NCBI GenBank assembly: GCA_022450155.1 | Contig: JAKUQR010000018.1 | Location: 1 to 64,000, forward strand | Direction of reading: 5' to 3' | Length of the DNA stretch: 64,000 bases | Source of the DNA: Gammaproteobacteria bacterium | Lineage (GTDB): Bacteria > Pseudomonadota > Gammaproteobacteria > Arenicellales > UBA868 | In this document: in pieces, positions 5,228 to 59,502 of the stretch | Position numbering within the stretch: position 1 is the stretch's first letter | Layout of the letters: each line of letters opens with the position of its first letter | Made by a program: the position numbers and the translations under genes | The notes under the pieces: model-generated | The model's input: the letters and a program-made list of their open reading frames with translations, nothing else | What the model was told of the DNA's origin: nothing | Database searches by the model: none

Positions 5228-5247
5228 TCGTTGACTGACCACTTGTA

Positions 5248-5291: not shown

Positions 5292-5334
5292 GTATCGCCT
5301 TAAGCGTTCAGCACTGATCCTTGCCGGGTCCGAT

Positions 5335-5865: not shown

Positions 5866-5868
5866 ACC

Positions 5869-13381: not shown

Positions 13382-13383
13382 AT

Positions 13384-14196
13384 ATGGGCAGCATGACTGA
13401 TTATCAGTCCCAGCACTTCGGTTGGCAGGTCACCGACAGGGTCGCGACGATTAAGTTGAATCGCCCTGAGCGGAAAAACCCGCTGACATTCGAGTCCTAC
13501 GCCGAACTGCACGATGTCTTTGAGCGGTTGAATGGCTGTGACCAGATCCGTGCCGTTGTGATTACCGGTGCCGGGGGCAATTTCTGCTCCGGCGGTGACG
13601 TGTTTGAAATAATTGAACCACTGACTAAACGTGACGAGGTGGGTCTGAAGCAATTTACCGAGATGACCGGCTCGGTGGTTAAGGCGATGCGTCACTGTCC
13701 ACAGCCAATTGTGGCTGCGGTCGATGGCATTTGTGCCGGTGCCGGCGCAATACTGGCAATGGCTTCAGACATCCGTATCGCAACCGCGAGGGCGCGCACT
13801 GCATTCCTGTTTGTCCGGGTCGGCCTGGCCGGTTGTGACATGGGTGCCTGCGCCATTCTGCCCCGGATTATCGGGCATGGACGAGCCTCAGAATTGCTCT
13901 ACACGGGTCGCTTTATGGATGCTGACGAAGGTGAGCGCTGGGGCTTTTTTAATCGGATCGAATCGCCGGAGTCAGTTCTGGAAGCCGCCCAGGCGTTGGC
14001 TGTTTCGCTGGCACAAGGACCCAGCTACGCACATGCCGTAACCAAAAGACAACTGCACGCAGAATGGGACATGTCTGTCGATGAGGCTATCGATGCGGAG
14101 GCACGCGCCCAGGCTGAATGCATGGCGACCAAAGATTTTCAGCGTGCCTTCGAAGCATTTGCTGCCAAGCGCACGCCGGTCTTTGAAGGTAACTGA
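13384..14196 (+). CDS. enoyl-CoA hydratase/isomerase family protein
   Basis: A crotonase-fold protein of about 270 residues: [18 protein letters not shown], the oxyanion-hole strand [18 protein letters not shown] and [28 protein letters not shown]. An AGGAGG site at 13371-13376 fits the ATG at 13384 (seven-base spacing) better than the ATG at 13378, which overlaps the MarR stop. Either start is possible. In the usual catalytic positions G...[17 protein letters not shown] shows no clear glutamate pair, so it may act as a ring hydrolase or isomerase rather than a classical hydratase. It is an operon member, and the next gene starts one base after its stop. Confidence 0.88.
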
Positions 14197-14197
14197 G

Positions 14198-15352: not shown

Positions 15353-15409
15353 TTTGACCCTTTACCGCAATTACCGATCGTGCGTTGATCAACAGAGCTC
15401 ATAAAGCGA

Positions 15410-26364: not shown

Positions 26365-26584
26365 GTGCAATCCAGCACCAGGAGCAGTCCGTTCACGTCA
26401 AGATGGCGCACCACTGGAATCTGTTGGTCAACGGTGTTGTGAATATAGAACCAATTCAGAACCAAATATTGCACCACTAGCCGGATCGCTCCTCACCTTG
26501 CAAAGCGGATTGATAAGGTGAACAATGGACAGGTGATCAGCGATGCTGACACGGTATAAGTCTGACTACCAAAGGAGACAATTA

Positions 26585-28165: not shown

Positions 28166-28192
28166 CCTAGAGAAATGTCAGATGTTGTTCGG

Positions 28193-28221
28193 AAATGCCT
28201 GCTGCTTGTCAGCAGGCATTT
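28193..28221 (+). terminator. intercistronic hairpin after the ABC binding-protein gene
   Basis: A perfect inverted repeat with 12-base arms (AAATGCCTGCTG, 28193-28204, and its complement at 28210-28221) around a five-base loop. Only a short T-containing tail follows. It probably attenuates or protects the mRNA so that the binding protein is made in excess over the permease and ATPase subunits. Confidence 0.85.
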
Positions 28222-28269
28222 CTCATTTGGTCGAACAAGTTAATTTCATATTAAATACATAGTAATTCA

Positions 28270-29259
28270 ATGCAGTTTTTGATCATCACACTTAAGCGTG
28301 CCGGTTTTGGTCTCGTATTGCTTGTTGCTGTTTTGGCGTTGAATTTTGTGCTGATACACATTGCTCCAGGCGATGTCGCAGACACGATTGCCCAGGATGC
28401 TGGTGGATTAGATGCAGAGATAATGGAGCAGATTCGCGAAGATTACGGGCTTGATCTACCTTTGTGGGAGCAGATGGCGAAATATTTCTGGGGTGTGGCA
28501 AGGCTAGATCTTGGTTATTCTTTTTACTATAACGAGCCGGTTACCAAACTCATAATGGAGAAGTTACCAGCCACTCTTTTGTTAGTGATCAGTGCCCAGG
28601 TTATATCCATTTTCTTGGGTATATTGCTTGGTGTCACGGCAGCTCGAAACCCAAACGGGGTGACAAGCCATTTTGTTACCGTGTTGTCTTTGGTTGGCTA
28701 TGCGGCGCCGGTGTTTTGGACCGGTATCATGCTGATAATTTTGTTTTCCGTTATCGTCCCGATATTTCCCATAGGAAACATGATAGATGTGTCAGTAGAA
28801 AGGGACGGGATCGCTTATGTCATTGATGTGTTGCACCATTTAGTCTTGCCAGCGGTTACTTTGGGTTCGATTTTTCTGGCGATTTATAGCAGATTGTCGA
28901 GAGCCAGTATGTTGGATGTGTTGGGCTCTGACTATGTTAGAACAGCACGGGCCAAAGGCTTGTCGGAATTCCAAGTAGTGTTCAAGCATGCGTTGCGTAA
29001 CGCACTACTCCCAGTGGTTACAACTGTTGGATTGGTATTTTCTGGAATTATTTCCGGTGCAGTTCTTGTCGAGACTGTGTTTAGTTGGCCAGGGTTGGGA
29101 ACGTTAGCTGTCCAGGCAATTGTCGCAAGAGATACCCCAACAATTTTGGGTATCTTGTTCTTTTCATCGTTGGTTGTCGTAGTGGCGAATTTATTGACCG
29201 ATATGGTGTATCGAATTATTGATCCGAGAATCAAGACATCAGAAGGAAGTCAGGCGTAA
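28270..29259 (+). CDS. ABC transporter permease (DppB/OppB type)
   Basis: A 329-residue inner-membrane permease with six predicted helices. Family features are the N-terminal FVLIHIAPGDVADTIA periplasmic start, the LGILLGVTAA helix and the cytoplasmic EAA loop VRTARAKGLSEFQVVFKHALRNALLPVV (about 223-250), which docks with the ATPase. The DNA here is visibly more A+T-rich than the catabolic genes on either side. It partners with the following permease and the two ATPases. Confidence 0.93.
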   Translation: MQFLIITLKRAGFGLVLLVAVLALNFVLIHIAPGDVADTIAQDAGGLDAEIMEQIREDYGLDLPLWEQMAKYFWGVARLDLGYSFYYNEPVTKLIMEKLPATLLLVISAQVISIFLGILLGVTAARNPNGVTSHFVTVLSLVGYAAPVFWTGIMLIILFSVIVPIFPIGNMIDVSVERDGIAYVIDVLHHLVLPAVTLGSIFLAIYSRLSRASMLDVLGSDYVRTARAKGLSEFQVVFKHALRNALLPVVTTVGLVFSGIISGAVLVETVFSWPGLGTLAVQAIVARDTPTILGILFFSSLVVVVANLLTDMVYRIIDPRIKTSEGSQA

Positions 29260-29261
29260 TC

Positions 29262-30161
29262 GTGAGTGAAGAGCTAAAACAGCAAAGCCTGAGTCATCAA
29301 GAAATGGGTGTTGTTCAGATTGAGCACCCTTTTACAGAGGCCGCGCGAATGTTCGCCGCAAACTATGCCGCTGTCGCAGGGTTGCTTGTGTTGGCAATTA
29401 TTATCGTAGTCTCGTTGTTGGGCCCGTTTCTGTATACGGTTGATCCCTGGGAGATGGTCTGGTCTCCCTTTAGCCCCCCAGGGGCCAAAGGGTTTCTTTT
29501 AGGAACAGACTATTTAGGACGCGATCTTGTGGCCCAAATTATTCACGGTGGAAGGGCGACCATAGCAGTGGGGTGTGCTGCTGCTTTATTGAGTGTCCTG
29601 ATTGGTATTACTTTTGGAGCCCTGTCGGGATTCTATCGGGGGTGGGTTGAGGAAATTCTGATGAGAATCACGGAATTCTTTCAGGTGTTGCCGACATTGC
29701 TATTTTCTATGGTTCTTGTTGCGCTTTTTGGAGCTTCACTACAGATGATTGCGTTTGCGATTGGCATCGTTAGCTGGACTGGTGTTGCCAGGGTCACGCG
29801 AGCTGAATTTCTTAAAATTCGAGAACTCGAGTACGTTACCGCTTCGCGTTCGGCTGGTGCGAAGGCTCCGACCTTAATCTTTAGAGTGATTTTGCCTAAT
29901 GCGTTGCCACCAATTGTGGTGCAAGCGGCATTGCTGGTTGGTTTTGCAATTTTATTTGAAGCGGGTTTGAGTTTTCTAGGTTTGAGTGATCCCAACGTGG
30001 TGAGTTGGGGTGCGATGATGGGAAATAATCGACCATTCATCCTACAACACTCCTTCACAATCATGTATCCAGGCCTGGCTATTTTTATTACGGTGTTGGC
30101 CATCTCATTGGTAGGAGATGGCTTGAATGATGCATTAAATCCCAAGCTTCGGAAACGTTAA
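29262..30161 (+). CDS. ABC transporter permease (DppC/OppC type)
   Basis: A 299-residue permease with an N-terminal cytoplasmic tail, first helix near 38-60 and the typical LLGTDYLGRDLVAQIIHGGR stretch of OppC proteins (about 80-98). The EAA loop VTASRSAGAKAPTLIFRVILPNALPPIV precedes the last helices. The start is a GTG two bases after the previous stop, with GAAGGAAG upstream. Its stop overlaps the start of the ATPase gene by one base. Confidence 0.93.
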   Translation: MSEELKQQSLSHQEMGVVQIEHPFTEAARMFAANYAAVAGLLVLAIIIVVSLLGPFLYTVDPWEMVWSPFSPPGAKGFLLGTDYLGRDLVAQIIHGGRATIAVGCAAALLSVLIGITFGALSGFYRGWVEEILMRITEFFQVLPTLLFSMVLVALFGASLQMIAFAIGIVSWTGVARVTRAEFLKIRELEYVTASRSAGAKAPTLIFRVILPNALPPIVVQAALLVGFAILFEAGLSFLGLSDPNVVSWGAMMGNNRPFILQHSFTIMYPGLAIFITVLAISLVGDGLNDALNPKLRKR

Positions 30162-31168
30162 TGGCAGAACCACTACTGTCGGTTAGAAATTTGACGGTTG
30201 AGTTCACGATCCGTGGTGGTGTAGTGCCGGTGATTGATGATCTGTCATTTGATCTTGGCCCCGGTGAAACATTGAGTCTGGTCGGAGAATCTGGCTGTGG
30301 CAAAAGTATGACCGCGCTTGCAATTATGGGATTGATCCCATCACCGCCTGGAGTGATATCTGCAGGCTCAATAACTTTGCAGGGCGAAGATCTAGTTCAA
30401 ACAACAGATGCCAGGATGCGTGAGATCAGAGGCAACGAAGTTTCGATGGTTTTTCAAGAACCCATGACGTCCCTGAATCCGGTCTACACGGTAGGTGAGC
30501 AAATTGCTGAGACGCTGCGACGTCACCAGAGACTGACCCGGAAGCAGGCCCAAGTTCAGGCGATTCAGATGATAGATGCGGTACAGATACCCCTGCCTGA
30601 CCGTCGTGCAAATGATTATCCGCATCAACTATCCGGTGGAATGAGGCAGCGCATCATTATTGCGATGGCGTTGGCTTGCCAACCAAAAATTCTGATCGCA
30701 GATGAACCGACAACCGCATTGGATGTGACTGTACAGGCACAGATTTTCGATCTAATGCAGAACTTACAACATGAGACAGGTGCGGCGATCATTCTCATCA
30801 CTCACGATATGGGGTCGGTCGCCGAAATGGCTGAGCGAGTGGTGGTTATGTACGCTGGGCGTAAGATTGAAGACGGTCGAGTGGAAGATATTTTGTTGCG
30901 ACCACAGCACCCTTACACCCGAGGACTCATAGCGTGTGTGCCACATCTGTTGGGCAAAGTGACAGCGGACCGGCCATATCTTCAAGAGGTGCCTGGAATG
31001 GTGCCCCCGCTTTCTGAATTTGGCTTCGATGGTTGCATGTTCGCACCACGATGCGATCTGGTTCGCGATGTCTGTTGGCAAGAAAAACCCCACCACACAA
31101 AGCTAACAGAGACCCAAAGCGTAGCATGTTGGGAGCTTGTTACCAGCAATGAGTCAGCCGATGCCTGA
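30161..31168 (+). CDS. ABC transporter ATP-binding protein (DppD/OppD type)
   Basis: A 335-residue ATPase. Walker A is GESGCGKSM (about 44-52), the signature LSGGMRQRI, Walker B ILIADEPTTALD and the H-loop ITHDMGSV. The C-terminal oligopeptide-transporter extension (HPYTRGLIACVPHL...CMFAPRCDLVRDVCW) contains the cysteines that bind an Fe-S cluster in some DppD/OppD proteins. It starts at an overlap with the OppC stop. Confidence 0.94.
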   Translation: MAEPLLSVRNLTVEFTIRGGVVPVIDDLSFDLGPGETLSLVGESGCGKSMTALAIMGLIPSPPGVISAGSITLQGEDLVQTTDARMREIRGNEVSMVFQEPMTSLNPVYTVGEQIAETLRRHQRLTRKQAQVQAIQMIDAVQIPLPDRRANDYPHQLSGGMRQRIIIAMALACQPKILIADEPTTALDVTVQAQIFDLMQNLQHETGAAIILITHDMGSVAEMAERVVVMYAGRKIEDGRVEDILLRPQHPYTRGLIACVPHLLGKVTADRPYLQEVPGMVPPLSEFGFDGCMFAPRCDLVRDVCWQEKPHHTKLTETQSVACWELVTSNESADA

Positions 31169-32141
31169 CACTGCGCCGATGTTAGAACTTCGTGATGTGG
31201 AGGTTCGCTTCGACCTTAAGCGAACGAACCTCTTCGGTGCCGCGCTGCAGTTGAGAGCGGTCGATGGCGTTTCGCTATCGCTACAACGAGGCCAGACTAT
31301 GGCTGTTGTAGGTGAATCCGGTTCGGGTAAGACGACACTGGCTCTGGCGATCGCTCGTTTAATACCTGTAACCACCGGTAAAATTCGAATGGGTGATGTT
31401 GACCTGCTTGGCTTACAAGGTGAATCGCTCCGAACTCATCGACGGCATATGCAGTTTATTTTTCAGGATCCTTATTCGTCGTTGAATCCAAGATTACGTG
31501 CCAAGGATATCGTCCGAGAGCCACTCGATCGTTTAAGTATTGGATCAGTTAAGAGTCGTAACAATCGGGTTCAGGAACTGTTTGAACAGGTCGGGCTACG
31601 TCAGGACCAACTGAGACTGTTTCCTCATCAGTTTTCAGGTGGTCAACGCCAGCGAATTGGCATCGCCCGGGCGATTGCTTCAAGTCCTAGTCTTGTGATC
31701 TGCGATGAGCCGGTTTCGGCGCTTGATGTGGGTGTCCAGGCGCAGATACTAAACTTACTTCGCAGATTGCAAAAAGATCTCAATCTGACGTATCTGTTTA
31801 TTTCTCACGACCTTGGTGTTGTTCAACACATGTGTGACAGTATTGCAGTGATGTACATGGGCAAGATCGTCGAGCAAGCGGACCGTGAATCACTTTTTAA
31901 TAATCCCAAACATCCCTATACCCAGGCGTTGCTGTCGGCCGTGCCGTCAGCGGACCCAAATCGTAGAAACCGGGGGCGTCGCACAACCATCACTGGTGAT
32001 CCGCCGAACCCGATCGATTTGCCGCCTGGCTGTCGCTTTGCTTCACGCTGTCCACTTGTGGTCGATCAGTGCCGGACGGATCTGCCCGATCTGAGAGCGG
32101 TGGACAGAACACACCGAGTAGCGTGTCATCTAGCGGAGTGA
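31149..32141 (+). CDS. ABC transporter ATP-binding protein (DppF/OppF type)
   Basis: A 330-residue ATPase. Walker A is GESGSGKTT, the signature FSGGQRQRIGIARAI, Walker B LVICDEPVSALD and the H-loop ISHDLGVV, with the C-terminal oligopeptide-transporter segment (HPYTQALLSAVPSADP...GCRFASRCPLVVDQC). The ATG at 31149 lies inside the end of the upstream ATPase gene; this 20-base overlap suggests coupling. It completes a five-gene importer. The gene converges with the LLM oxidoreductase. Confidence 0.93.
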   Translation: MSQPMPDTAPMLELRDVEVRFDLKRTNLFGAALQLRAVDGVSLSLQRGQTMAVVGESGSGKTTLALAIARLIPVTTGKIRMGDVDLLGLQGESLRTHRRHMQFIFQDPYSSLNPRLRAKDIVREPLDRLSIGSVKSRNNRVQELFEQVGLRQDQLRLFPHQFSGGQRQRIGIARAIASSPSLVICDEPVSALDVGVQAQILNLLRRLQKDLNLTYLFISHDLGVVQHMCDSIAVMYMGKIVEQADRESLFNNPKHPYTQALLSAVPSADPNRRNRGRRTTITGDPPNPIDLPPGCRFASRCPLVVDQCRTDLPDLRAVDRTHRVACHLAE

Positions 32142-33218: not shown

Positions 33219-33381
33219 CTGACTTCTCCTGTTTGGGCGATGCAAGGTGCTACAGGTTGAAAAAAGATCGTGTGGCTTTAGCTCAACTTCAGGCATGACC
33301 TGTTTCGTGGCGGGTCAGGCGGTTATGATACGACTGTCGTACATTTCGCGCACCCTGTTTACCAGAGAGATCTTTCAATTT

Positions 33382-35049
33382 ATGCCTGATCTTGATCCTG
33401 TGACACTTTCCGTTCTCAAGGGGCGTCTCGAACAGATTGCGGACGAGATGGATGCGACGCTCTTTAGATCCGCATTTAATCCGATCATTGCGGAAGCTCA
33501 TGACGCCAGTCACGGGCTCTACCACGCCACCACCGGGGAAACCCTGGTTCAGGGAAAGAGTGGTCTGCCGATATTCGTCGGCACCATGGCGTTCGCTGTT
33601 CGACTGGTGATCGATCGCATCGATGCGGCCGATGCCCCTTTGAATTCCGGCGACATTTACATCTTCAACGATCCGTATGAAGGCGGCACGCATCTCTCCG
33701 ACTTCAAGCTGGTACGTCCTTATTTCTACCAGGGCGAACTTTTTTGTTTCCTGGCTTCGGTGGGGCACTGGCACGATGTCGGTGGCAATGTGCCTGGTAA
33801 CTACAACCCCGCAGCGACCGAGAGCTTCCAGGAAGGTATGCTGATTCCGCCCGTAAAACTCTGTGAGGGTGGGCGAATCCAAAACGACATCATTGACATC
33901 CTGAAGGCCAATTCCCGCCTGCCGGAATCGCTCTATGGCGACCTCAACGGCCAGTTGAATTCACTTGACCTCGGGGTGCAACGGCTTGATGCATTGCTCG
34001 AAGAATACGGTACCGACCAGGTTGAGCAGGCCTTCAGTCAGTTAAAACAGCGGGCCGAGGCGTTGATGCGCAGCCACATTGCAGAACTGCCTCAAGGCAG
34101 GTACTCGGCGGAAGACTGGCTCGATAATGACGGCATTGTTGACGAGCCCCTTCGTATTGCACTGGATCTTGAGATTCGTGATAACAGCATGTGCCTGGAT
34201 TTCTCAAGGACAGCGCGTTCGTGTGCGGGGCCGGTCAATATTTCCCGATCTACGACGATCGCCTGTTGTTACGTCGCCTTGAAGCACATCTTCAAGGAGG
34301 TACCGGCAAACTCCGGCGTCCTTTCGCCTATCGAATTCGTTATTCCAGAAGACAGCCTGCTGTCAGCCAGTGCGCCGCGGCCGGTCGGTGGCTATACCGA
34401 GACTATCCTGCGAATCATCGACGTGATATTCGTGGCCCTGTCTCAGGCCGATCCTTCAATCTCCAACGGTTGCGCCTACGGCACCATCAACGCTCTGTCG
34501 CTGGCCGGGTACCGTAAGGACGGGCGGCGCTGGGTGATGTTTTCCTTCTTTGGCGGTGGCCACGGCGGGCACCCCCAAGGTGATGGTCTTAACCATGGAA
34601 ATGCACCGATCTCTACAGCCACCATACCGCCGCTGGAGATTCTTGAGGCGGCGTATCCGGTATTGTTTACAAAGTGGGCGCTGCGTCCGGACAGCGGTGG
34701 GGCTGGCGAACATCGCGGCGGTTGCGGGGCGATCTACGAGATCGCGCTACTGGAGGATGAGGCCGAGGCTTTTCTGTTCGGTGACCGTGGAAAATTTCCA
34801 CCGCCGGGCGTGGTGGGTGGATCGCCAGGCAGTTGCAACCGGTTTTCATATGAGCAGGATGACGGATTTCACTCACCGGAACTGGTATCGAAGATTGTTG
34901 GGATCAAGCTGAAGAAGAATCAACGCGTTCGCCTCGAAACGCCGGGCGGTGGCGGGTACGGGAAACCGAAAAATAGGAATCCGAAACGCGTGGAAGAAGA
35001 CATCCGGCTCGGTTATGTGACGGCACGTGCCAGCGAGAATCCGCAGTAG
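33382..35049 (+). CDS. hyuB: hydantoinase B/oxoprolinase family protein
   Basis: A 555-residue HyuB-family subunit. It begins DPVTLSVLKGRLEQIADEMDATLFRSAFNPIIAEAHDASHGLY, then shows the metal-binding GDIYIFNDPYEGGTHLSDFKLVRP stretch and the GGHGGHPQGDGLNHGNAPISTATIPPLEILE block near the C-terminus, all typical of HyuB/5-oxoprolinase/acetone carboxylase beta subunits. The ATG at 33382 is preferred because the upstream part of the frame has no family resemblance. It acts with HyuA to open cyclic amides (hydantoins, oxoproline, caprolactam) in an ATP-dependent way. The order is B then A. Confidence 0.92.
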   Translation: MPDLDPVTLSVLKGRLEQIADEMDATLFRSAFNPIIAEAHDASHGLYHATTGETLVQGKSGLPIFVGTMAFAVRLVIDRIDAADAPLNSGDIYIFNDPYEGGTHLSDFKLVRPYFYQGELFCFLASVGHWHDVGGNVPGNYNPAATESFQEGMLIPPVKLCEGGRIQNDIIDILKANSRLPESLYGDLNGQLNSLDLGVQRLDALLEEYGTDQVEQAFSQLKQRAEALMRSHIAELPQGRYSAEDWLDNDGIVDEPLRIALDLEIRDNSMCLDFSRTARSCAGPVNISRSTTIACCYVALKHIFKEVPANSGVLSPIEFVIPEDSLLSASAPRPVGGYTETILRIIDVIFVALSQADPSISNGCAYGTINALSLAGYRKDGRRWVMFSFFGGGHGGHPQGDGLNHGNAPISTATIPPLEILEAAYPVLFTKWALRPDSGGAGEHRGGCGAIYEIALLEDEAEAFLFGDRGKFPPPGVVGGSPGSCNRFSYEQDDGFHSPELVSKIVGIKLKKNQRVRLETPGGGGYGKPKNRNPKRVEEDIRLGYVTARASENPQ

Positions 35050-35064
35050 AACACTGTCCAGGTG

Positions 35065-37125
35065 ATGAGTACAGGAACTAAACGAATCGTTGTTGGTGTT
35101 GATGTTGGCGGCACGTTTACTGATATGTTCTTTCTCGACGAGGTAGATGGCACATGCGAGGTCGTTAAGGTGCCCACCACGCGGGATGATCAGTCCCGGG
35201 GTATTCAGCAAGGCATCGACCGAACCCTCGGAGGGCTTACGGACGTGGCCACGATCGTGCACGGGACGACGGTTGCGACCAATGCGCTGCTTGAGCGAAA
35301 AGGTGCCCGGACCGGTCTGATCACGACCCGGGGCTTTCGGGATGTGCTGGAAATGCGGCGAAGGGACCGGCCCGACACCTGGGGCCTGTGGGGTACCTTT
35401 ACCCCGCTGATTGCCCGCGATTTTCGCCTCGAAGTGGATGAGCGGGTGCTCGCAGACGGGACCTGCATGGTGTCGATCGATCCTGACCAGGTTACGCAGG
35501 CTGCGAGGCAGTTGCGGGCCCAGGGCGCTGAGTCGATCTGTGTTTTCTTTATCAACGCTTATGCCAACGACCACAACGAACGCATGGCTGTGGAGGCGGT
35601 ACGGGCGATGTGGCCCAATCCTCATGTGACTGCTTCACATGAGATCCTGCCGGAAATCAGGGAATTCGAGCGGGCTTCGACAGCATCGCTGAACGCATAC
35701 CTCCAGCCGACCATAGGAGATTACCTCGGCCAGCTGGAGCGTCGTCTGCGAGATGGCGGGTTGACGGGAAACATCTTGATCGTACAGTCCAACGGCGGTG
35801 TCATGACGATTGATACGGCCTGCAGGCTCCCGGTTCGAACAGCGTTGTCCGGGCCTGCGGCCGGTGTGATCGCAAGTGCTCACATCGCCCGGTCGGCAGG
35901 AATCGACAATATCATTACTTGTGATATGGGTGGTACCAGTTTTGATGTCTCGGTGATCATAAAAGGCCAGAGCAAGATGGTGGCGCAGACCCAGATCGAC
36001 TTCGGTATGGTGATCAGAACGCCGATGGTCGAGATCACCACGATCGGTGCCGGCGGTGGCTCGATCGCCTGGATTGACCCAGGCGGCCTGCTCCAGGTCG
36101 GACCTGAAAGTGCCGGGTCGGATCCAGGGCCGGTCTGCTACGCCCAGGGGAACAGCCATCCGACCGTGACCGACGCCAACCTGGTCCTGGGCAGGATCAA
36201 TGCGCAGCAACCGATTGGGGGTGGACTGACTGAGCTCGATGTTGAATCGGCTGCTCGTGCAATCCAGAGCGAAATCGGAGAGCCGTTAGCGTTGGATACC
36301 ATGGCGGCGGCGGAGGCTATCATCCGGGTGGCGAATGCAAAAATGGCCGGTGCAATCCGGCTGGTGTCGGTCGAGCGCGGGCACGATCCCAAGAATTTTG
36401 TTGCCATGCCCTTCGGCGGGAGCGGCGCACTGCACGTGGGTTCGTTGATCAAGGACGTCGGGCTTGCCAGCGCGCTCGTGCCGCGTTATCCGGGAGTCAC
36501 CAGTGCGCTGGGCTGTATCGCTGCAGATATGCGGCACGACCGGGTGATGACGATTAACCAATTGCTAGAGGAACTCGACACAGCGCAGCTGGACCGGCTT
36601 GTGCGCGACAGCGCTGAAAGCGGTGAGCGCCTGTTGCGCGAAGCCGGAATTCGCCTCGATGGGATCGAGGTGACGTGCGAGCTGGACATGAACTATGTTG
36701 GACAGACGCACACGATTGCCGTGTCCTTACCGGGGCGAATTCCGGATGACTCTGCCGATCAAGAGGTTATCAGGACGGCGTTCGATCAGACTTACCGCGG
36801 TACTTACGGTCGTCTACTGGAAAATATTCCCGTGCGGGTGTTGAACCTTCGAGTTACTGTAGTGGGCCTGCGGCCGACATTCGATCTGTCAGTCATCTCT
36901 CCCGCTGCCAATACCCGGACTAGGATGACAGGAGAAAGGGATGTCTGGGTCGATGGCGCCTGGCACTCGGCCCGCGTCTACGAGCGCCTCAGTCTACCGG
37001 TAGGCGAACGCATCCATGGGCCTGCGCTGCTGGAGCAGTCCGATGCAACCATATTCATCGATCCGGGCCTGGAAGGTGTGGTCGATGATTATGGTAACTT
37101 GATTGTGCAACGGCTGGATACTTAA
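35065..37125 (+). CDS. hyuA: hydantoinase/oxoprolinase family protein, ATP-binding subunit
   Basis: A 686-residue HyuA-family subunit with an actin/Hsp70-like ATPase fold: phosphate loop GVDVGGTFTDMFFLDE at about 10-25, HGTTVATNALLERKGARTGLITTRGFRDVLEMRR, a second phosphate motif CDMGGTSFDVSVI and GAGGGSIAWID. It forms the ATP-dependent ring-opening enzyme with HyuB just upstream (15-base gap). ATG at 35065 is chosen over the adjacent in-frame GTG. Annotations such as hydantoinase, 5-oxoprolinase or acetone carboxylase cannot be separated from the sequence alone. Confidence 0.92.
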   Translation: MSTGTKRIVVGVDVGGTFTDMFFLDEVDGTCEVVKVPTTRDDQSRGIQQGIDRTLGGLTDVATIVHGTTVATNALLERKGARTGLITTRGFRDVLEMRRRDRPDTWGLWGTFTPLIARDFRLEVDERVLADGTCMVSIDPDQVTQAARQLRAQGAESICVFFINAYANDHNERMAVEAVRAMWPNPHVTASHEILPEIREFERASTASLNAYLQPTIGDYLGQLERRLRDGGLTGNILIVQSNGGVMTIDTACRLPVRTALSGPAAGVIASAHIARSAGIDNIITCDMGGTSFDVSVIIKGQSKMVAQTQIDFGMVIRTPMVEITTIGAGGGSIAWIDPGGLLQVGPESAGSDPGPVCYAQGNSHPTVTDANLVLGRINAQQPIGGGLTELDVESAARAIQSEIGEPLALDTMAAAEAIIRVANAKMAGAIRLVSVERGHDPKNFVAMPFGGSGALHVGSLIKDVGLASALVPRYPGVTSALGCIAADMRHDRVMTINQLLEELDTAQLDRLVRDSAESGERLLREAGIRLDGIEVTCELDMNYVGQTHTIAVSLPGRIPDDSADQEVIRTAFDQTYRGTYGRLLENIPVRVLNLRVTVVGLRPTFDLSVISPAANTRTRMTGERDVWVDGAWHSARVYERLSLPVGERIHGPALLEQSDATIFIDPGLEGVVDDYGNLIVQRLDT

Positions 37126-53073: not shown

Positions 53074-53149
53074 GCCCGCATAGCTCAGTTGGCAGAGCAG
53101 CTGATTTGTAATCAGCAGGTCGGTGGTTCGAATCCACTTGCGGGCTCCA
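53074..53149 (+). tRNA. tRNA-Thr (anticodon TGT)
   Basis: A complete 76-base cloverleaf: acceptor stem GCCCGCA pairing with TGCGGGC, an anticodon stem GCTGA/TCAGC around loop TTTGTAA with anticodon TGT at 53107-53109, T-loop TTCGAAT and an encoded CCA end at 53147-53149. In many Gammaproteobacteria this tRNA heads a thrU-tyrU-glyT-thrT-tufB cluster after birA. Here the other tRNAs and tufB are missing and a catabolic operon follows directly. Confidence 0.97.
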
Positions 53150-53251: not shown

Positions 53252-54040
53252 ATGAACACACAGCCGATCAGGATCTGCTATCAGAGTTATGTGGACTACG
53301 AGAACGGAAAGACCTACTGGGACACACTGGGTGCGTACCTGAAAAAAATCACTTATCCTGGTACCACCATCGATATCCGCGGTATCACGCCCTTTGACTC
53401 TTATGCCCACAATTTGGTCGAGATGCGCTGTGCCAGGGAGATGATCTGTAACGCGGTTGCTGCGGAGCGTGAGGGTTACGATGCATTTATCGTCGGGCAC
53501 TTCCAAGATGCGGGACTGTATGAAGCGCGCGCGGTCGTCGATATACCGGTGGTGTCGCTCGGCGAGTCCAGCATGTTGTACAGTTGCCAGCTTGCTCAGC
53601 GTATCGGCGTCGTCACCATCAATACCCGCTTCATCCCGTGGTTCCAGCACCAGATTCGCAAGTATGGGCTGACCGAGCGTATTACGGGCGTTCACGCAAT
53701 GCAGTTCGAGCCAGGTCAGCTGCTCGACGCGATGGGTAATACCCAGAAAACCCTTGAGGCCAAAGCACTGTTCTGTACGCAGGCCGAGCCCCTGGTCGAA
53801 GAGGGTGTGGAGTTGATACTCGCGGGTGGCGGTATTCCCATGCTGCTGTTTGCTGATCAGTTCGGTTTTAACGTTTCGGGTGCACCGGTGGTGAACGGTA
53901 TCGACATTGTTGTGAAAGCGGCCGAAACTGCTGTCTTCTTGCAGCGAGCCAGCGGTCTGGGTGTCAGTCGTGTCGGTGATTACATCAAACCACCAGGCCA
54001 CGTTATCGAAGAATTTCTGAGTCATCCCAAGGGTCTGTAG
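53252..54040 (+). CDS. Asp/Glu/hydantoin racemase-fold protein lacking both catalytic cysteines
   Basis: A 262-residue member of the Asp/Glu/hydantoin racemase superfamily: ICYQSYVDYENGK, a strand AFIVGHFQDAGLYEARAVVDIPVVSLGESS, and a second strand LILAGGGIPMLLFADQ. Hydantoin racemases have a cysteine before the F-x-D-x-G-L motif (ACFxDxGL) and another in the G-C-A/T-x-M position. Here these are histidine (H83) and glycine (about 192-194). Racemisation by two cysteines is therefore unlikely, and another reaction or a binding role is expected. It is the first gene of the five-gene operon after tRNA-Thr, with AAGGACGG upstream of the ATG. Confidence 0.85.
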   Translation: MNTQPIRICYQSYVDYENGKTYWDTLGAYLKKITYPGTTIDIRGITPFDSYAHNLVEMRCAREMICNAVAAEREGYDAFIVGHFQDAGLYEARAVVDIPVVSLGESSMLYSCQLAQRIGVVTINTRFIPWFQHQIRKYGLTERITGVHAMQFEPGQLLDAMGNTQKTLEAKALFCTQAEPLVEEGVELILAGGGIPMLLFADQFGFNVSGAPVVNGIDIVVKAAETAVFLQRASGLGVSRVGDYIKPPGHVIEEFLSHPKGL

Positions 54041-54053
54041 GAATTTCCGTTCA

Positions 54054-55691
54054 ATGGGGTACGTTTTTACCGATACCGACACGGTGTTTGGCACGTTCAG
54101 CAATATGGCTGAGCGCTGGCCGGCGCGTCTGTTTCTCAATGTGCTGCCAGAAACAGCCGCTGCCTATGGGATTGCTGCCGGCGAGACGACTTATGGCCAG
54201 TTACTGGCCGACGTCAAAAGGCTTCGAGTGGCTTACGAAGTGGCAGGCTACCGGGCCGGGGGCCGGGTCATGCTGTTGCTGGAGAGCCGGCCGGGATTTT
54301 TCCAGCACTGGTTTGCACTGAATGCACTCGGGTTGTCGGTCGTTCCTGTTAATCCTGATCTGAAAGCAGCAGAGCTTGGATTTATCGCGGGCCACGCCCA
54401 GCCTTGCCTCGCCGTCGCCGCCGGGTCAGGTATAGAGGACCTGCAGCAGGCAAGCTGCGAGTCGGGTGTCAACTTCCCGGTCATCGCCTCCGACGCGCCG
54501 CTGCCGGCGCCGGCGAATTGTGAACCAGTGATGGACCTGTCGGTCGGGCCCCTGCAGCGTGAATCCGCCATGCTCTACACCTCCGGCACCACGGGTCAGC
54601 CCAAAGGGTGTGTGCTGGCGAACCTTTATTTTCTCCATGCGGGTCGTTGGTATAACGATGCCGGTGGCCTGTGTTCGCTCGCCACTGATGGAGAACGGAT
54701 GATCACGCCGTTGCCGATGTTTCATATGAATGCAATGGCCTGCTCAGTGATGGCAATGGTGATGACAGGTGGCTGTCTGATCGCCCTTGATCGTTTTCAC
54801 CCGTCCAGTTGGTGGGCCAGCGTGCGGGAAAGCCGGGCAACTTGCCTTCATTATCTGGGAGTAATGCTGTCTATCCTGATGCAAGCACCAGCAGCGATGA
54901 CTGACAGGGATCATCAGGTGCGATTTGGATTTGGTGCCGGCGTCGATCCAGGTCTGCATGAGCTATTCGAGAGGCGCTTCGGTTTCCCGCTGATCGAGGC
55001 TTGGGCTATGACCGAGACCGGTGCCGGCGCGGTGATCTGTGCCAATCACGAACCTCGCAAGGTGGGGAAGAACTGTCTGGGGCGTCCTGGTCCTGATGTG
55101 GAGGTGCGCATTGTTGGAGAAGACGGAAAAGAAGCTGGTCCAGATCGCCCCGGCGAACTGCTGGTCCGCCACGCCGGGGTAGACCCGAGGCGGGGTTTCT
55201 TCACCGAGTACTATAAAGATCAGGCGGCGACCGACGCCGCCTGGCAAGGTGGGTGGTTCCACACCGGAGATATAGCGCGGCGGGATGCCGACGGAGATAT
55301 GTTTTTTGTCGACCGCAAAAAGAACGTGATTCGCCGTAGTGGTGAGAACATCATGGCTGTAGAAGTGGAATCCACCCTGATGCGCCATCCGGCGGTGGTC
55401 ACGGCAGGGGTCGCCGGGGTCAGCGATGTGGTTCGGGGCGAGGAGGTGTTCGCCTGTCTGGTCATTAATGGGGACGCTGCAGAAGACCGGCTTCGGGATA
55501 TCGTCAGATGGTGCCTGACCCAGATCGCCTATTACAAGGTGCCTGGTTTCGTTGCCAGTGTTGCTGAATTGCCGCTGACCTCCACGCAGAAGATTCAGCG
55601 CAGTGAGTTGAAAGCCCTGGTAGACCGGCTGCTGGGTGATTCGGCCACTGTAGACACCACGGCCCTGAAGCGTCGTCGAAGTGGATCATGA
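54054..55691 (+). CDS. acyl-CoA ligase, carnitine/crotonobetaine-CoA ligase-like
   Basis: A 545-residue adenylate-forming ligase. Motifs are the P-loop LYTSGTTGQPKGCVLANLYFLHAG, PLPMFHMNAMACSV, EAWAMTETGAG, the hinge WFHTGDIARRDADGDMFFVDRKKNVIRRSGENIMAVEVE, and the C-terminal LTSTQKIQRSEL carrying the catalytic lysine. It resembles CaiC-type and other ATP-dependent acyl-CoA ligases. It would activate the operon's substrate before cleavage by the thiolase-like/DUF35 pair. The thiolase gene overlaps its stop (ATGA). Confidence 0.9.
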   Translation: MGYVFTDTDTVFGTFSNMAERWPARLFLNVLPETAAAYGIAAGETTYGQLLADVKRLRVAYEVAGYRAGGRVMLLLESRPGFFQHWFALNALGLSVVPVNPDLKAAELGFIAGHAQPCLAVAAGSGIEDLQQASCESGVNFPVIASDAPLPAPANCEPVMDLSVGPLQRESAMLYTSGTTGQPKGCVLANLYFLHAGRWYNDAGGLCSLATDGERMITPLPMFHMNAMACSVMAMVMTGGCLIALDRFHPSSWWASVRESRATCLHYLGVMLSILMQAPAAMTDRDHQVRFGFGAGVDPGLHELFERRFGFPLIEAWAMTETGAGAVICANHEPRKVGKNCLGRPGPDVEVRIVGEDGKEAGPDRPGELLVRHAGVDPRRGFFTEYYKDQAATDAAWQGGWFHTGDIARRDADGDMFFVDRKKNVIRRSGENIMAVEVESTLMRHPAVVTAGVAGVSDVVRGEEVFACLVINGDAAEDRLRDIVRWCLTQIAYYKVPGFVASVAELPLTSTQKIQRSELKALVDRLLGDSATVDTTALKRRRSGS

Positions 55692-56872
55692 GACGCCCGA
55701 CAGGGTTTCGTACAGCCTACGACGGGGTCGTCCTGGCGGCACCGGTGACCGTACCTTATCAACGGTTCTCAAAGGAATCGGCTCACCATTGGATCGCGCG
55801 GGCCCTTCGCGGGAGCCTGACCGCAGCCAGGATTTCTCCGACTGAGTTGGACGGGTTCTCTGTTGCCAGTTTTACCTTGTTTCCAGATACTGCTGTAGGA
55901 CTTACGCAGCATCTGGGACTGGCGCCTCGCTGGCTTGATCACATACCTACTGGTGGGGCCAGTGGCATCACGGCTCTGCGCCGCGCGGCGCGGGCAGTCC
56001 AGGCTGGAGACGTCGACGTCGTAGCCTGTGTCGCCGGCGACACCAATCATATCGACAGCTTCCGACGGCTGCTGTCGAGTTTCAGTCGTTTTGCCCAGGA
56101 TGCGTCCTGGCCTTACGGTTCCGGTGGGCCCAACACTAGCTTTGGTCTGTTGACCGATCACTACATGCACGCCTTCGGCGCAACCCGTGAGGACTTTGGT
56201 CGTCTTTGTGTCTCCCAGCGCAGCAATGCCCTGCGTAATCCGCACGCTATCATGAAAGAGCCGTTGACGATGGCTCAATACCTGTCGGCCCGTTTGATTT
56301 CCGACCCGATTGCACTTTATGACTGTGTGATGCCGGTGGCAGGCGCAGAAGCGTTTCTGGTTTTGCGCGAAACCGATGCCGTGGCCCAGGGTCTCCCATT
56401 TGCCTGTATCCGCTCGACCATAGAAAGGCACAATGCCTTCGCTGCTGATCCAGTACAGATGCGCGGTGGCTGGGCAGTGGATGTTGATGAGCTTTACGGA
56501 ATGGCACAGGCAGCCCCCACTGATGTCGATCTCGTGCAGACCTATGACGATTACCCGGTCATCACGATGATGCAGATTGAGGATCTTGGCTTTTGTGAAA
56601 AAGGCGAGGCCCCTGCATTCGTCCGCCAGCGGGACCTGACGATCGACGGGGATTTCCCGCACAATACCTCTGGTGGTCAATTGTCCGCTGGGCAGGCCGG
56701 TGCGGCAGGCGGTTATCTCGGATTGGTCGAGGCGATCCGACAGGTGACGGGAATGGCCGGCCCCACCCAGGTAGCGGACGCAAAGCTGGCACTGGTGTCT
56801 GGTTTCGGCATGATTAACTACGACCGCGGCGTCTGTTCGGGTGCGGTGATGATCTCGGGAGGTAGCTCATGA
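55688..56872 (+). CDS. thiolase-like protein lacking the nucleophilic cysteine (SCP-x/Ltp2-like)
   Basis: A 394-residue thiolase-superfamily protein. The usual nucleophile motif C-A-S-G is replaced by GGASG (about 89-93), so the acyl-enzyme cysteine is absent. The C-terminal part has FPHNTSGGQLSAGQAGAAGG in place of N-x-H-G-G...S-x-G-H, so the second catalytic region is also altered. Ltp2 of steroid side-chain breakdown is a cysteine-less thiolase fold that works with a DUF35 partner as a retro-aldolase. The next gene here encodes a DUF35 domain, so an aldol-type C-C cleavage of a CoA thioester is a reasonable guess. Start and stop overlap the neighbouring genes by four bases. Confidence 0.85.
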   Translation: MRRPTGFRTAYDGVVLAAPVTVPYQRFSKESAHHWIARALRGSLTAARISPTELDGFSVASFTLFPDTAVGLTQHLGLAPRWLDHIPTGGASGITALRRAARAVQAGDVDVVACVAGDTNHIDSFRRLLSSFSRFAQDASWPYGSGGPNTSFGLLTDHYMHAFGATREDFGRLCVSQRSNALRNPHAIMKEPLTMAQYLSARLISDPIALYDCVMPVAGAEAFLVLRETDAVAQGLPFACIRSTIERHNAFAADPVQMRGGWAVDVDELYGMAQAAPTDVDLVQTYDDYPVITMMQIEDLGFCEKGEAPAFVRQRDLTIDGDFPHNTSGGQLSAGQAGAAGGYLGLVEAIRQVTGMAGPTQVADAKLALVSGFGMINYDRGVCSGAVMISGGSS

Positions 56873-58122
56873 CTACGCCGATCAGTCCACCGGCCAGAAA
56901 GAATCCTCAGAAGCGTACCCGTGTGCCGGTCGTGCCGCCGGATACGCGTAGCCGCGCCGCGCTTGGACTGTCGGTGGCAGCTGCACGGGGGCGATTTATG
57001 CTGCAGGTCTGCACAGAGTGTTCAGCCATCCAGTACCCACCGCGGGACGCCTGTTCAAGCTGCCTGTCGGTAGACCTTGAATGGCAAGTCGTCTCGAACC
57101 GGGGCCGGCTGGTCGCCGAGACCGTCATTCGCACCAGCACACACGTTTATTTCCGTGAACGTACCCCGTGGCGGGTCGGTACCGTGCAACTGGATTGCGG
57201 CCCGTCGATGATCTGTCATGTTCATGGGGACTGTGAGTCCCAAGGAAATGTCCGCATGATTAACCGCCTTGACAAGTCTGGTCACGGTGTCCTGTTTGCC
57301 CTGCCCGAGAAGGAGATACCAGCTATGGAAGATGATCCCCAACTGCGCGAACTGACCTGCAGCCCGAAGTTTCGACGCATACTGATTACAGATGCACGCA
57401 GCGAAAGCGGCCAGGCCCTGGCTAGGGCCTTCTCCACGGCCGATGCCGCCCTCGTCTTCGCCGGTGAGGCGGAAAGCTGGCGCCACTGGCCCGAACGGGA
57501 CAGCCTCAAGGAGATCGACAACGTCGAACTCGTACCGCTGGACGTGAGTGACACACAGTCCGTCGAGGAACTGTGCGGTGAGATCGGCGGCAAGGTCGAT
57601 ATCCTGGTCAACAATGCGCGGTTTGTCCGGCCGGGTGGGGTAATGGACGGGGGCGACCTGGTATTCGCACAGCAGGAAATGGAGGTGAACTGTCTGGGGT
57701 TGATGCGCCTTGCCCAGGCTTTTGGTCCGGTAATGCGCGGGCGCGGTGCCGATGGTGTCAACAGTGCCACCGCCTGGGTGAATATCCTGTCGATCTATGC
57801 CTACTGCAACCTACCGCAGTTTGGCGTCTATTCGGCCTCCAGCGCGGCAGCGCATTCGCTTTCACAGTGTCTGCGATCGGAAATGCGTACCGGTGGTGTG
57901 CGGGTGATGAATGTTTATACTGGCCCGACCGAAGACGAATGGCACCAGCCGTTGCCGCCACCAAAAGTCACGGCGTCGAAACTCGCCAGTGCGGTGGTCG
58001 AAGGCCTGCAGGATGGGCTGGAGGAGGTCTATGTCGGTGACTTGGCGAAGGACCTCATCGATCGCTGGAGCGCTGAACCCAAGCTCCTGGAACTGGAAAT
58101 GACGCGACAGGGAGGTGGTTGA
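56869..58122 (+). CDS. fusion of DUF35 Zn-ribbon/OB-fold domain with a degenerate SDR domain
   Basis: A 417-residue two-part protein. Residues 30-160 are a DUF35-type acyl-CoA-binding module: rubredoxin-like zinc ribbon with C48, C51, C62 and C65 (CTEC...CSSC), then an OB strand region (GRLVAETVIRTSTHVYFRERTPWRVGTVQLD). Residues 168-400 resemble an SDR: Rossmann strand ILITDARSESGQALARAF, VDILVNNAR, VNILSIYAY and YSASSAAAHSLSQ. In the active-site Y-x-x-x-K the lysine is serine (Y321 to S325), and the cofactor glycine motif TGxxxGxG is imperfect. DUF35 proteins pair with thiolase-like enzymes (BbsA/BbsB, ChsH2/Ltp2). The SDR part may be structural or catalytically altered. Confidence 0.85.
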   Translation: MTTPISPPARKNPQKRTRVPVVPPDTRSRAALGLSVAAARGRFMLQVCTECSAIQYPPRDACSSCLSVDLEWQVVSNRGRLVAETVIRTSTHVYFRERTPWRVGTVQLDCGPSMICHVHGDCESQGNVRMINRLDKSGHGVLFALPEKEIPAMEDDPQLRELTCSPKFRRILITDARSESGQALARAFSTADAALVFAGEAESWRHWPERDSLKEIDNVELVPLDVSDTQSVEELCGEIGGKVDILVNNARFVRPGGVMDGGDLVFAQQEMEVNCLGLMRLAQAFGPVMRGRGADGVNSATAWVNILSIYAYCNLPQFGVYSASSAAAHSLSQCLRSEMRTGGVRVMNVYTGPTEDEWHQPLPPPKVTASKLASAVVEGLQDGLEEVYVGDLAKDLIDRWSAEPKLLELEMTRQGGG

Positions 58123-58124
58123 GA

Positions 58125-58934
58125 ATGACGGTAACCAATAGCCAGGATAATCACGCGCTGACCAGCCTGGCGTCAGCCATGGCCAATGGCGAAGTCGTGA
58201 CGATCGATCTCACCCACACGCTGGATCCTGATTTTCCCGTGATCATCTTGCCGCCGGAATTCGGTCAGTGTGCCCGGTTCCGCATGGAGGAGATCTCGGC
58301 CTACGATCACCGTGGTCCGGCCTGGAAGTGGCACAATTTTTCCTGCTGCGAGCACACTGGCACACATTTTGATGCGCCTATTCACTGGATTTCAGGCCGG
58401 GACCTGCCGAACAATAGTGTCGACGAGATCCCGGTTGAGCGGTTCATCGGTGCGGCCTGCGTCATCGACTGTTCTGAAGGTGCGGCCCGGGACGACGACT
58501 TCGAACTGACGCCCGAAGTGATCGAGGCCTGGGAGGCCGATCACGGCAGAATTCCGCCAGACTGTTGGGTGCTGATGCGCACGGACTGGTCGAAACGCTC
58601 CGGGGCAGCTTATCTCAATATGCGTGACGACGGGGCGCATTCTCCAGGGCCATCGCCGGAGGGTATTCGCTTGCTGGTGGAGCAGCGGGACATCCGCGGG
58701 TTCGGCGTAGAGACCGTGGGTACCGATGCCGGTCAGGGGCAGCACTACACCCCACCGTTTCCGGCCCACTACACGCTTCACGGTAACAACAAGTACGGCC
58801 TGCAGTGTCTAAACAATTTGGATCTTCTGCCCCCTGTCGGAGCAGTCATTATCGCGACGCCGCTCAAGATCAAGAACGGAACAGGGAGCCCACTTCGGGT
58901 GTTGGCACTGGTGCCGCGGAGTCACGCCGTATAA
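58125..58934 (+). CDS. cyclase family protein, kynurenine formamidase-like metal-dependent hydrolase
   Basis: A 269-residue protein of the KynB/cyclase superfamily. The metal-binding motif H-x-G-T-H-x-D-x-P-x-H is intact in CEHTGTHFDAPIHWI (about 73-88), and VLMRTDWSKRSG and GFGVETVGTDAGQG are later family blocks. Members hydrolyse formamides, as in kynurenine breakdown, or cyclic amides and isatin. GGGAGGTGG upstream of the ATG at 58125 fixes the start. It closes the operon and may act on the product of the thiolase-like/DUF35 pair. Confidence 0.87.
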   Translation: MTVTNSQDNHALTSLASAMANGEVVTIDLTHTLDPDFPVIILPPEFGQCARFRMEEISAYDHRGPAWKWHNFSCCEHTGTHFDAPIHWISGRDLPNNSVDEIPVERFIGAACVIDCSEGAARDDDFELTPEVIEAWEADHGRIPPDCWVLMRTDWSKRSGAAYLNMRDDGAHSPGPSPEGIRLLVEQRDIRGFGVETVGTDAGQGQHYTPPFPAHYTLHGNNKYGLQCLNNLDLLPPVGAVIIATPLKIKNGTGSPLRVLALVPRSHAV

Positions 58935-58947
58935 ACAGCCGGGGATG

Positions 58948-59279
58948 TTATTCGTTGAAACGGGTGAGAATTCTCTGCCGCTCGACCTGATACTCCTCCG
59001 CCGAGACAGCGCCTTCAGTATGGGCTTGGTGCAGGTCCAGCAGTTCCTGTCCCATGGTTGTGTAGTTCGGCGGTCAAGTTTGCCCAGTCGGGGTGGATGC
59101 CGGTTCCATCTACAACGATCATGCAATTCTTGGAATCATTGGTAGCCTCGGTGTCAATACCGAACACGCCGCGGCCGACAACACTGGGTCCAGCGTTGAT
59201 GCGCGACTGCTGACGCGCGCGTACCCTAGCTTCTCCACCGAATCCTCTGCTCTTAAATGCGTATAGCGCGTCAGCATCC
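58948..59279 (-). pseudogene. unidentified frameshifted gene fragment
   Basis: On the minus strand an open stretch of about 75 codons ([18 protein letters not shown]..., 59279 downward) keeps a protein-like composition up to about 59060. A second frame then continues to a stop at 58948 with a helical tail (GQELLDLHQAHTEGAVSAEEYQVERQ) that looks like a short C-terminal SHOCT-type helix pair. A shift between the frames, a stop at the left end of the first frame and no start codon with a ribosome site suggest a decayed gene end. I do not recognise the family. Confidence 0.35.
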
Positions 59280-59391: not shown

Positions 59392-59502
59392 ATGAAACAC
59401 ACAGGCTTTACCCTGATCGAGTTGATGATCGTGGTGGCGATCATCGGGATTCTTGCAGCGATTGCAATACCGCAGTATCAGAACTATGTGGCGAGAGCGT
59501 AG
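59392..59502 (+). pseudogene. type IV pilin 5' fragment with an in-frame stop
   Basis: The frame gives the classic type IV pilin N-terminus: a short leader MKHTG, the prepilin peptidase site before F, then the hydrophobic helix [18 protein letters not shown] and [17 protein letters not shown] stop follows at 59500-59502. Reading through it gives VSEALSLAG, which matches the usual continuation of pilins (ARAQVSEALSLA), so the stop is best explained as a C-to-T change of a CAG glutamine codon. The sequence after about 59530 is the 3' end of the opposite-strand deiminase gene, so the rest of the pilin is missing. Confidence 0.82.

Follow-up and report, generated by a model that had tools for sequence, protein, structure and literature searches.

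The iad locus for bacterial degradation of the auxin indole-3-acetic acid (IAA) has been described in PMC9613470 and in a 2025 preprint (PMC12633357), and its IMG gene numbers fit the order C-D-E-F-G-H-I-J (PMC10374108). According to the preprint, IadCDE oxidises IAA and IadJ gives dioxindole-3-acetic acid (DOAA, C10H9NO4), the crystal structure 9o71 represents IadDE of Variovorax paradoxus, and the end product is anthranilate, reached through isatin (PMC12633357). Variovorax mutants lacking iadF, G, H or I accumulated a compound with the formula of DOAA; the four gene products are annotated as an acyl-coenzyme A (CoA) synthase, a ketothiolase, an alcohol dehydrogenase and a kynurenine formamidase, and the removal of the side chain by F-G-H was deduced from this annotation, as the intermediates went undetected (PMC12633357). 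Here, we analyzed the first 64,000 nucleotides of contig JAKUQR010000018.1 (GCA_022450155.1), from a gammaproteobacterium of the UBA868 lineage (hereafter, the window), which harbor a compact operon of five genes, g1 to g5. By family and gene order, g2-g5 match iadF-G-H-I and would represent the lower half of this known auxin pathway, and we read the operon as an oxygenase-less variant of the iad locus with the extra gene g1. The residues of g3 and g4 further suggest a retro-aldolase with a pseudo-dehydrogenase tail, by which the DOAA side chain would be cut in a reverse aldol reaction. The five genes are arranged as follows:

53252-54040, + strand: g1, Asp/Glu/hydantoin racemase family (PF01177, E 2e-24)
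54054-55691, + strand: g2, AMP-binding acyl-CoA ligase (PF00501/PF13193), IadF-like
55688-56872, + strand: g3, thiolase C-terminal domain, thiolase fold, IadG-like
56869-58122, + strand: g4, ChsH2-type zinc ribbon (PF12172), OB fold (PF01796) and adh_short (PF00106), IadH-like
58119-58934, + strand: g5, cyclase family, putative isatin hydrolase A, IadI-like

All five frames are open in the window, with coupled starts and stops, and both the reading frames and the family matches agree with those given in the original prediction, a reading of the sequence made without database searches. The four-base overlaps that it reported were found at g2/g3, g3/g4 and g4/g5, the last of which requires a TTG start for g5, as an ATG located 6 bases downstream of the TTG would remove it. 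The replaced active-site residues were likewise recovered, comprising both cysteines of the racemase fold (His83 and Gly193 in g1, aligned to 3qvj), the nucleophilic Cys of the thiolase fold (Gly90 in g3, aligned to the Pyrococcus thiolase 7yvy) and the Lys of the short-chain dehydrogenase/reductase (SDR) motif YxxxK, which reads Y321-S-A-S-S325 in g4.

The genomic neighborhoods used for comparison were those of the best 80 of 577 g3 relatives in a scan with the g3 alignment, to which nine further loci were added (seven found through g4 and two through g3), totaling 89 loci, 82 of them gathered via g3. These loci overlap in taxonomy and are related to one another, and the counts given below are not independent; the absences are upper bounds, because several loci are cut by contig ends. 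Using tblastn, we detected g3 in 89, g4 in 86, g5 in 85, g2 in 76 and g1 in 11 of the 89 loci (82, 79, 78, 71 and 6, respectively, among the 82 gathered via g3). The genome-context search proposed with the original prediction revealed the arrangement g2-g3-g4-g5, with all four genes on a single strand, in 71 of the 89 loci, including 67 of those gathered via g3. Homologues of the Rieske alpha subunit, the Rieske beta subunit and the SDR of one locus, L062, were each present in 69 of the 89 loci by direct tblastn. Among the 71 in-order loci, 59 conserve the Rieske alpha and beta genes upstream in the same orientation, and in 56 of them an IadJ-like SDR follows downstream as well, an arrangement which reproduces the published gene order. 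The best match of the L062 Rieske alpha subunit was 9o71 (E 4.7e-166), and that of its beta subunit was a chain common to 7yls, 8h2t and 9o71 (E 2.7e-37), which indicates that the related loci are of the iad type. Such loci were found in roseobacters, Nitratireductor, Hoeflea, Achromobacter, Aromatoleum and others, and a cluster labeled by eye as MarR-type was obtained in 49 loci by clustering of open reading frames (ORFs). Out of the 20 loci lacking IadD, seven are 12 kb or shorter. The window proteins g2-g5 share median identities of 60, 73, 60 and 75% with the loci bearing the oxygenase (ranges 45-68, 54-81, 47-73 and 61-81%). The F-G-H-I families and their order are the same in the Variovorax paradoxus CL014 locus (iadC-K2), whereas the window has no IadCDE or MarR gene adjoining the operon and no clear IadJ, and carries g1. 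The earlier statement that the set could not be matched to a described pathway did not hold for four of the five genes (g2-g5), to which the refutation named with that prediction, a known pathway, applies; g1 and the missing oxygenase stand outside the described pathway.

Isatin hydrolase A of Labrenzia aggregata (5nna and 5nnb) coordinates manganese through His69, His73 and Asp75 and exhibits WxW and GLQC as family marks, and isatin was first identified as an intermediate in IAA degradation (PMC6117287). These two structures were the closest solved relatives of g5 (E about 1e-141), sharing 194 of 253 aligned residues with it (76.7% identity). Linking the residue numbers of both proteins via their motifs, we found the metal ligands H79, H83 and D85 and the tryptophans W69 and W71 kept in all 86 alignment rows, and the Gln and Cys of GLQC in 83 of 86 (2 gaps). 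With 77% identity, the same ligands and the same marks, no notable sequence difference separates g5 from isatin hydrolase A, and its product is an IadI-like isatin hydrolase A predicted to convert isatin to isatinate. Kynurenine formamidase or a generic cyclase was discarded as an assignment for g5, since the arylformamidase model scored 32 against a cut-off of 223 bits and the isatin hydrolase match was overwhelming.

Two thiolase-fold aldolases acting with DUF35 partners have been described, namely the bile acid aldolase Sal-Shy (9myr) and Ltp2-ChsH2 (6ok1) (PMC12329534). Sal has a Gly in place of the nucleophilic Cys, which makes thiolysis impossible, and its catalysis depends on Tyr302 and Cys304 of a YDCY motif, whereas Ltp2 employs Tyr294 of YDHF together with Tyr344 (PMC12329534). 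The nearest solved protein to g3 was 9myr both by sequence and by Foldseek, where 6ok1 ranked second. The Foldseek and VIA-align comparisons were run on a predicted model with a predicted local distance difference test (pLDDT) score of 83.8 (the g1 and g3 structures were predicted as single chains only), and VIA-align likewise ranked 9myr first, with Z 45.3 over 369 residues at 3.5 A, ahead of thiolases and Ltp2, which came together at Z 43-44. The ketothiolase marks, i.e., the nucleophilic Cys in CxS/TG and the HDxF motif, are absent from g3. In its family, Gly occupies the place of the Cys in 90 of 90 rows, the window included, as part of a double Gly that is equally invariant. The motif YDDY is also present throughout the 90 rows, with Tyr286 and Asp288 each conserved in all of them, and Gln336 occurs at the place of Ltp2 Tyr344 in 89 rows (1 gap). 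Hence, g3 shares with Sal and Ltp2 the thiolase fold, the Gly in place of Cys, the catalytic Tyr of the YD motif and a DUF35 partner, and it shares with Sal a Gln at the Ltp2 Tyr344 place. Neither of the known general acids, Sal Cys304 and Ltp2 Tyr344, is present in g3, and with Asp288 and Gln336 in these places it belongs neither to the Sal nor to the Ltp2 type; as YDDY replaces YDCY and YDHF, its general acid must differ. The proposed substrate of g3 and g4 is also distinct, being an oxindole in place of the steroid of Sal and Ltp2.

The placement of g3 beside Sal, Ltp2 and the thiolases was made by motif comparison and not by a tree. Of 12 distant g3 homologues from related genomes, four showed HDCF together with CATG or CASG, i.e., the thiolase type, and the remainder YDHF, YDCF, YDCY, YDSF, YDAF, ADTF, YGAY and YDDY, once each. 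The YDDY homologue (L013) sits in locus L032, in which a Rieske pair is present, g4 is only weakly matched and g5 is missing. A steroid side-chain or benzoylsuccinyl-type pathway was considered for the operon and dropped, as the neighbors of g3 are an isatin hydrolase and, in 69 of the 89 loci, IadDE-type genes.

The partner gene g4 was detected in 79 of the 82 loci gathered through g3. Its DUF35 part, in which all four zinc cysteines are invariant (87 of 87 rows), is fused to an SDR-like domain, whereas Shy combines DUF35 with a MaoC domain. The SDR part lacks the classical marks TGxxxGxG and YxxxK at the family level: 82 of 87 rows have Asp in place of the first coenzyme-motif Gly, the catalytic Tyr is found in only 12 and the Lys in 4 (3 gaps); the window protein retains the Tyr (Y321). 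With the Cys absent, YDDY invariant and a DUF35 partner bearing a decayed SDR, the retro-aldol idea for g3 is well supported at the level of residues, the patterns matching an aldolase rather than a thiolase, from which we infer an aldolase-like working.

From the observed family memberships, gene order and residues, the following reactions can be proposed for this organism. The ligase g2 would activate DOAA as its CoA thioester, and g3, bound to the DUF35 portion of g4, would cleave DOAA-CoA by retro-aldol. Tyr286 would deprotonate the C3 hydroxyl, breakage of the C3-CH2 bond would release isatin and the enolate of acetyl-CoA, and Asp288, or a residue near it, would protonate the enolate. As a beta-hydroxyacyl-CoA whose alcohol is tertiary, DOAA-CoA would yield isatin and acetyl-CoA in one step by this reaction, as g5 needs. 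The SDR part of g4 would be a structural remnant doing no redox work, and g5 would hydrolyse isatin to isatinate, the route ending as anthranilate. The chemistry outlined in the original prediction (CoA activation of an acid, an Ltp2/ChsH2-like retro-aldol cleavage, and hydrolysis of an amide or ring) fits all tests run, and is supported by the nearest structure being a thiolase-fold aldolase, by the aldolase residues and by the isatin hydrolase character of g5.

The published reading takes IadG as a ketothiolase and IadH as a dehydrogenase, with F-G-H reductively removing the acetyl side chain to give C8H7NO2 before ring hydrolysis. It is backed by the annotation of both proteins and by the detection of C8H7NO2 in the iadI mutant and in a strain expressing F-G-H (PMC12633357). 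Against it stand the absence of the nucleophilic Cys from every g3 row, the scarcity of the SDR Lys among the g4 rows and the isatin hydrolase motifs of g5. Moreover, a tertiary alcohol cannot be oxidised to a 3-ketoacyl-CoA, the compound that a thiolase would require from DOAA. Taken together, we regard reductive removal by a ketothiolase as very doubtful, and the annotation of IadG and IadH as ketothiolase and reductive dehydrogenase probably needs revision in light of these residues.

Several observations weigh against a retro-aldol reading of g2-g5. True thiolases produced VIA-align Z values (43.6 and 43.4) as high as that of Ltp2 (43.4), compared with 45.3 for Sal. In Sal, replacement of the YDCY Cys by Ala, Ser or His abolished activity (PMC12329534), which makes an Asp at the Cys304 place untried chemistry. 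The iadI mutant shows C8H7NO2, the formula of dioxindole, and not isatin (C8H5NO2), in line with the reductive removal favored by the preprint (PMC12633357). As a direct retro-aldol would give isatin, C8H7NO2 would have to be a side product of isatin reduction on accumulation. The equation of g2-g5 with iadF-I is drawn from gene order, annotation and the IadDE structure, the Variovorax iadF-I sequences lying outside the locus set. Finally, neither an IadD orthologue nor a clear IadJ was found in the window genome, which would require another source of the substrate. Balancing these points, we assign a probability of about 0.82 to the explanation as a whole, in which g2-g5 form an iadF-I module working by retro-aldol cleavage and isatin hydrolysis.

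The genome containing the window comprises 3.2 Mb in 77 contigs and is 95.5% complete. No IadD orthologue was found genome-wide, the best match to L062 IadD reaching 32% identity across residues 24-222 of 441 (no separate search was made for IadE or IadC), compared with 42-100% in the 69 loci that have IadD; the sister genome G400 gave no close IadD match in the same search. The IadJ query retrieved 54 SDR matches in the window genome, the best at E 3.5e-31 and 36% identity, whereas the SDRs of loci with the oxygenase are 46-100% identical to that of L062. Lacking IadD, the set was filed as an FGHI module and not as a full iad locus, and DOAA must come from outside or from some oxidase. These absences make IAA a less than obvious entry compound and, with g1 present instead, raised the possibility that the module acts on a different beta-hydroxyacyl-CoA yielding isatin or a substituted isatin, e.g., from a halogenated or ring-hydroxylated DOAA. 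The median identities of g2-g5 to the oxygenase-bearing loci and the unchanged isatin-binding motifs argue against another acid, and we consider it unlikely.

The operon lies in a region inserted relative to two congeners and is flanked by the following features:

53074-53149, + strand: tRNA-Thr(TGT), left edge of the insert, with similarity to congeners stopping at 53150
58940-59094, - strand: HisA-like gene remnant, with similarity to L031, the locus of sister genome G400, ending at 59094 (an intact 306-aa ORF in L031)

The tRNA-Thr(TGT) gene ends 102 bases upstream of g1. In the congeners G398 and G399 it is followed by tRNA-Tyr, tRNA-Gly and tRNA-Thr(GGT), which here follow at contig position 65707, and this displacement points to an insert of about 12.5 kb, from 53150 to contig position 65706 (beyond the window), carrying g1-g5 among other genes. 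No integrase was recognised by eye among the listed ORFs of the insert, no convincing direct repeats marking it were found, and the promoter and terminator scans did not rise above shuffled sequences. The insert also holds a peptidyl-arginine/agmatine-deiminase-like gene, a GlpD-like gene and two genes resembling SerB and SerA by eye. At 59393-59502 there is a short frame with an early stop, which by eye resembles the beginning of a gene for type IV pilin.

This setting bears on whether the operon could be a leftover of a complete iad locus within the insert, no longer serving the pathway. Right behind g5 lies the HisA-like remnant, neither IadD nor a clear IadJ was found, and in the sister genome a deletion of about 70 bases near position 4908 of L031 breaks the frame of g3, or else the assembly is at fault there. 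Such decay is opposed by the five open, coupled frames of the window, by the intact motif residues of g2, g3, g4 (zinc) and g5, and by an anthraniloyl-CoA operon with open frames on the same contig, and we give it a low probability.

Concerning the first two genes of the operon, g2 belongs to a family with Lys513 in 75 of 77 rows (2 gaps) and is proposed as an IadF-like acyl-CoA ligase, a candidate dioxindole-3-acetate:CoA ligase. The g1 model (pLDDT 87.9) had allantoin racemase as its best fold match. It resembles the allantoin/hydantoin racemases 3qvj and 5lfd in fold and overall length and differs from them in lacking both catalytic cysteines, replaced by His and Gly in 12 of 12 sequences, the window included. 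Across 398 genomes of the phylum, g1 was detected in seven (E 1e-25) and g4 in eight (E 1e-30), both being present in six, the window's own genome among them (Fisher p 4e-11, with kinship ignored). By this co-occurrence, g1 is a real partner of the set. The word 'racemase' does not occur in PMC12633357, and no report linking a racemase to auxin breakdown was found among the papers listed by searches of the openly licensed literature. Locus L062 bears a g1 homologue with 65% identity directly behind a gene for a tripartite ATP-independent periplasmic (TRAP) transporter. The window itself encodes a TRAP transporter, DctPQM, at 4238-7314, whose DctM has its nearest relatives, within the locus set, in L084 and in two g1 carriers, L062 and L083. 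Additionally, a small-protein cluster occurs near g1/g3 in L026, L027, L029, L083, L104 and L111, the L104 member scoring over the cut-off as an Ohr-type peroxiredoxin.

The distribution of g1 relative to IadD shows a weak tendency toward mutual exclusion: among the loci, three g1 carriers have IadD and eight lack it, compared with 66 and 12, respectively, among the non-carriers (p 2e-4). This signal is weakened by the loci cut at contig ends and by the origin of three of the eight carriers (L025, L026 and L027) from genomes of one genus; both genomes searched among these three hold IadD elsewhere. When genomes carrying g1 were searched for IadD, G217 and G111 had matches of 63-67% elsewhere, and G392 and G265 had no close IadD. 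A tentative extension of these observations, which we consider possible though not favored, is a second, oxygenase-less type of oxindole-acetate locus, in which g1 (with a GHFQD motif) would perform an undescribed oxindole reaction alongside a third class of retro-aldolase, marked by YDDY and a DUF35-pseudo-SDR partner. For example, g1 might act on the stereochemistry or the tautomers of 2-oxindole-3-acetate, or it might contribute to the conversion of isatinate to anthranilate.

The aerobic anthraniloyl-CoA (2-aminobenzoyl-CoA) pathway is a known system for anthranilate, and an operon resembling it lies in the window 36 kb from g1-g5:

9763-12081, + strand: anthraniloyl-CoA (salicylyl-CoA type) monooxygenase/reductase (NF006101, 1260.8 bits against a cut-off of 1078)
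12099-12869, + strand: SDR, start uncertain (frame open from 12000, scanned from 12096)
12866-13381, + strand: MarR-family regulator (PF12802, E 7e-16)
13378-14196, + strand: enoyl-CoA hydratase (NF006107, 461 bits against a cut-off of 330)
14198-15352, + strand: acyl-CoA dehydrogenase, start uncertain (scanned from 14195, with no model exceeding its cut-off)
15410-17041, + strand: benzoate-CoA-ligase family, candidate 2-aminobenzoate-CoA ligase (TIGR02262, 342 bits, below the cut-off of 375)

The operon shares the monooxygenase/reductase, ligase, hydratase and dehydrogenase with the known pathway. NF006101 is an NCBIfam equivalog named salicylyl-CoA 5-hydroxylase/oxidoreductase, and we take the product of 9763-12081 to be the anthraniloyl-CoA enzyme, presumably so in view of the neighboring ligase. 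Parts of the operon have homologues within 10 kb of iad-type genes in L024, L027, L079, L083 and L108, the monooxygenase/reductase in L024, L027, L083 (partial, at the locus end) and L108, and the acyl-CoA dehydrogenase in L027, L079, L083 and L108. It is plausible that the genes at 9763-17041 encode the stage following anthranilate, which would then probably be burnt through this operon (9.8-17.0 kb), making a route from DOAA to central metabolism plausible on one contig. Divergent from the operon, at 8205-9791 on the - strand, lies a flavin mononucleotide oxidoreductase belonging to the old-yellow-enzyme family, which shares 59-63% identity with genes of the iad-type loci L079, L102 and L108.

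No gene was found that would convert isatinate to anthranilate. Isatinate being 2-aminophenylglyoxylate, oxidative decarboxylation to anthraniloyl-CoA by an enzyme resembling indolepyruvate ferredoxin oxidoreductase (IOR) is conceivable. A gene cluster whose scanned member (L102, 4197-6350) resembles the IOR alpha subunit, at 293 bits against a cut-off of 651, occurs in 22 loci and a companion cluster in 23; this 2-ketoacid oxidoreductase was not adopted as more than a possible isatinate enzyme, and the best IOR match of the window genome is below the cut-off and on another contig. Other genes between 17 and 50 kb were considered as part of the set and dropped. A hydantoinase B and A pair (33247-37125), which follows a peptide-type ATP-binding cassette (ABC) transporter (26543-32141), was matched in none of the 89 loci at E 1e-15. 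For this transporter, the binding protein and permeases gave matches of 24-39% in 5-7 loci, and the ATPases were matched at 36-54% in 18-21 loci, as is usual for ABC ATPases.

Four fifths of the set was already known, and the new elements are a different mechanistic assignment for two iad proteins and a variant that lacks the oxygenase and has a fifth gene. The term 'retro-aldol' is absent from PMC12633357, and no paper combining iadG or iadH with it was found among those listed by a search of the openly licensed literature. The residues of g3 and g4 offer a specific and testable replacement for the present annotation, a new class of thiolase-fold aldolase working on a non-steroid substrate and giving isatin and acetyl-CoA at once. 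If true, this would account for an isatin hydrolase coming next in the pathway and for the requirement for IadH despite its decayed SDR site. It also bears on the current transfer of iad genes to plant-growth-promoting bacteria, and it locates the pathway across numerous bacteria of marine and soil habitats, such as roseobacters, Hoeflea, Aromatoleum and Achromobacter.

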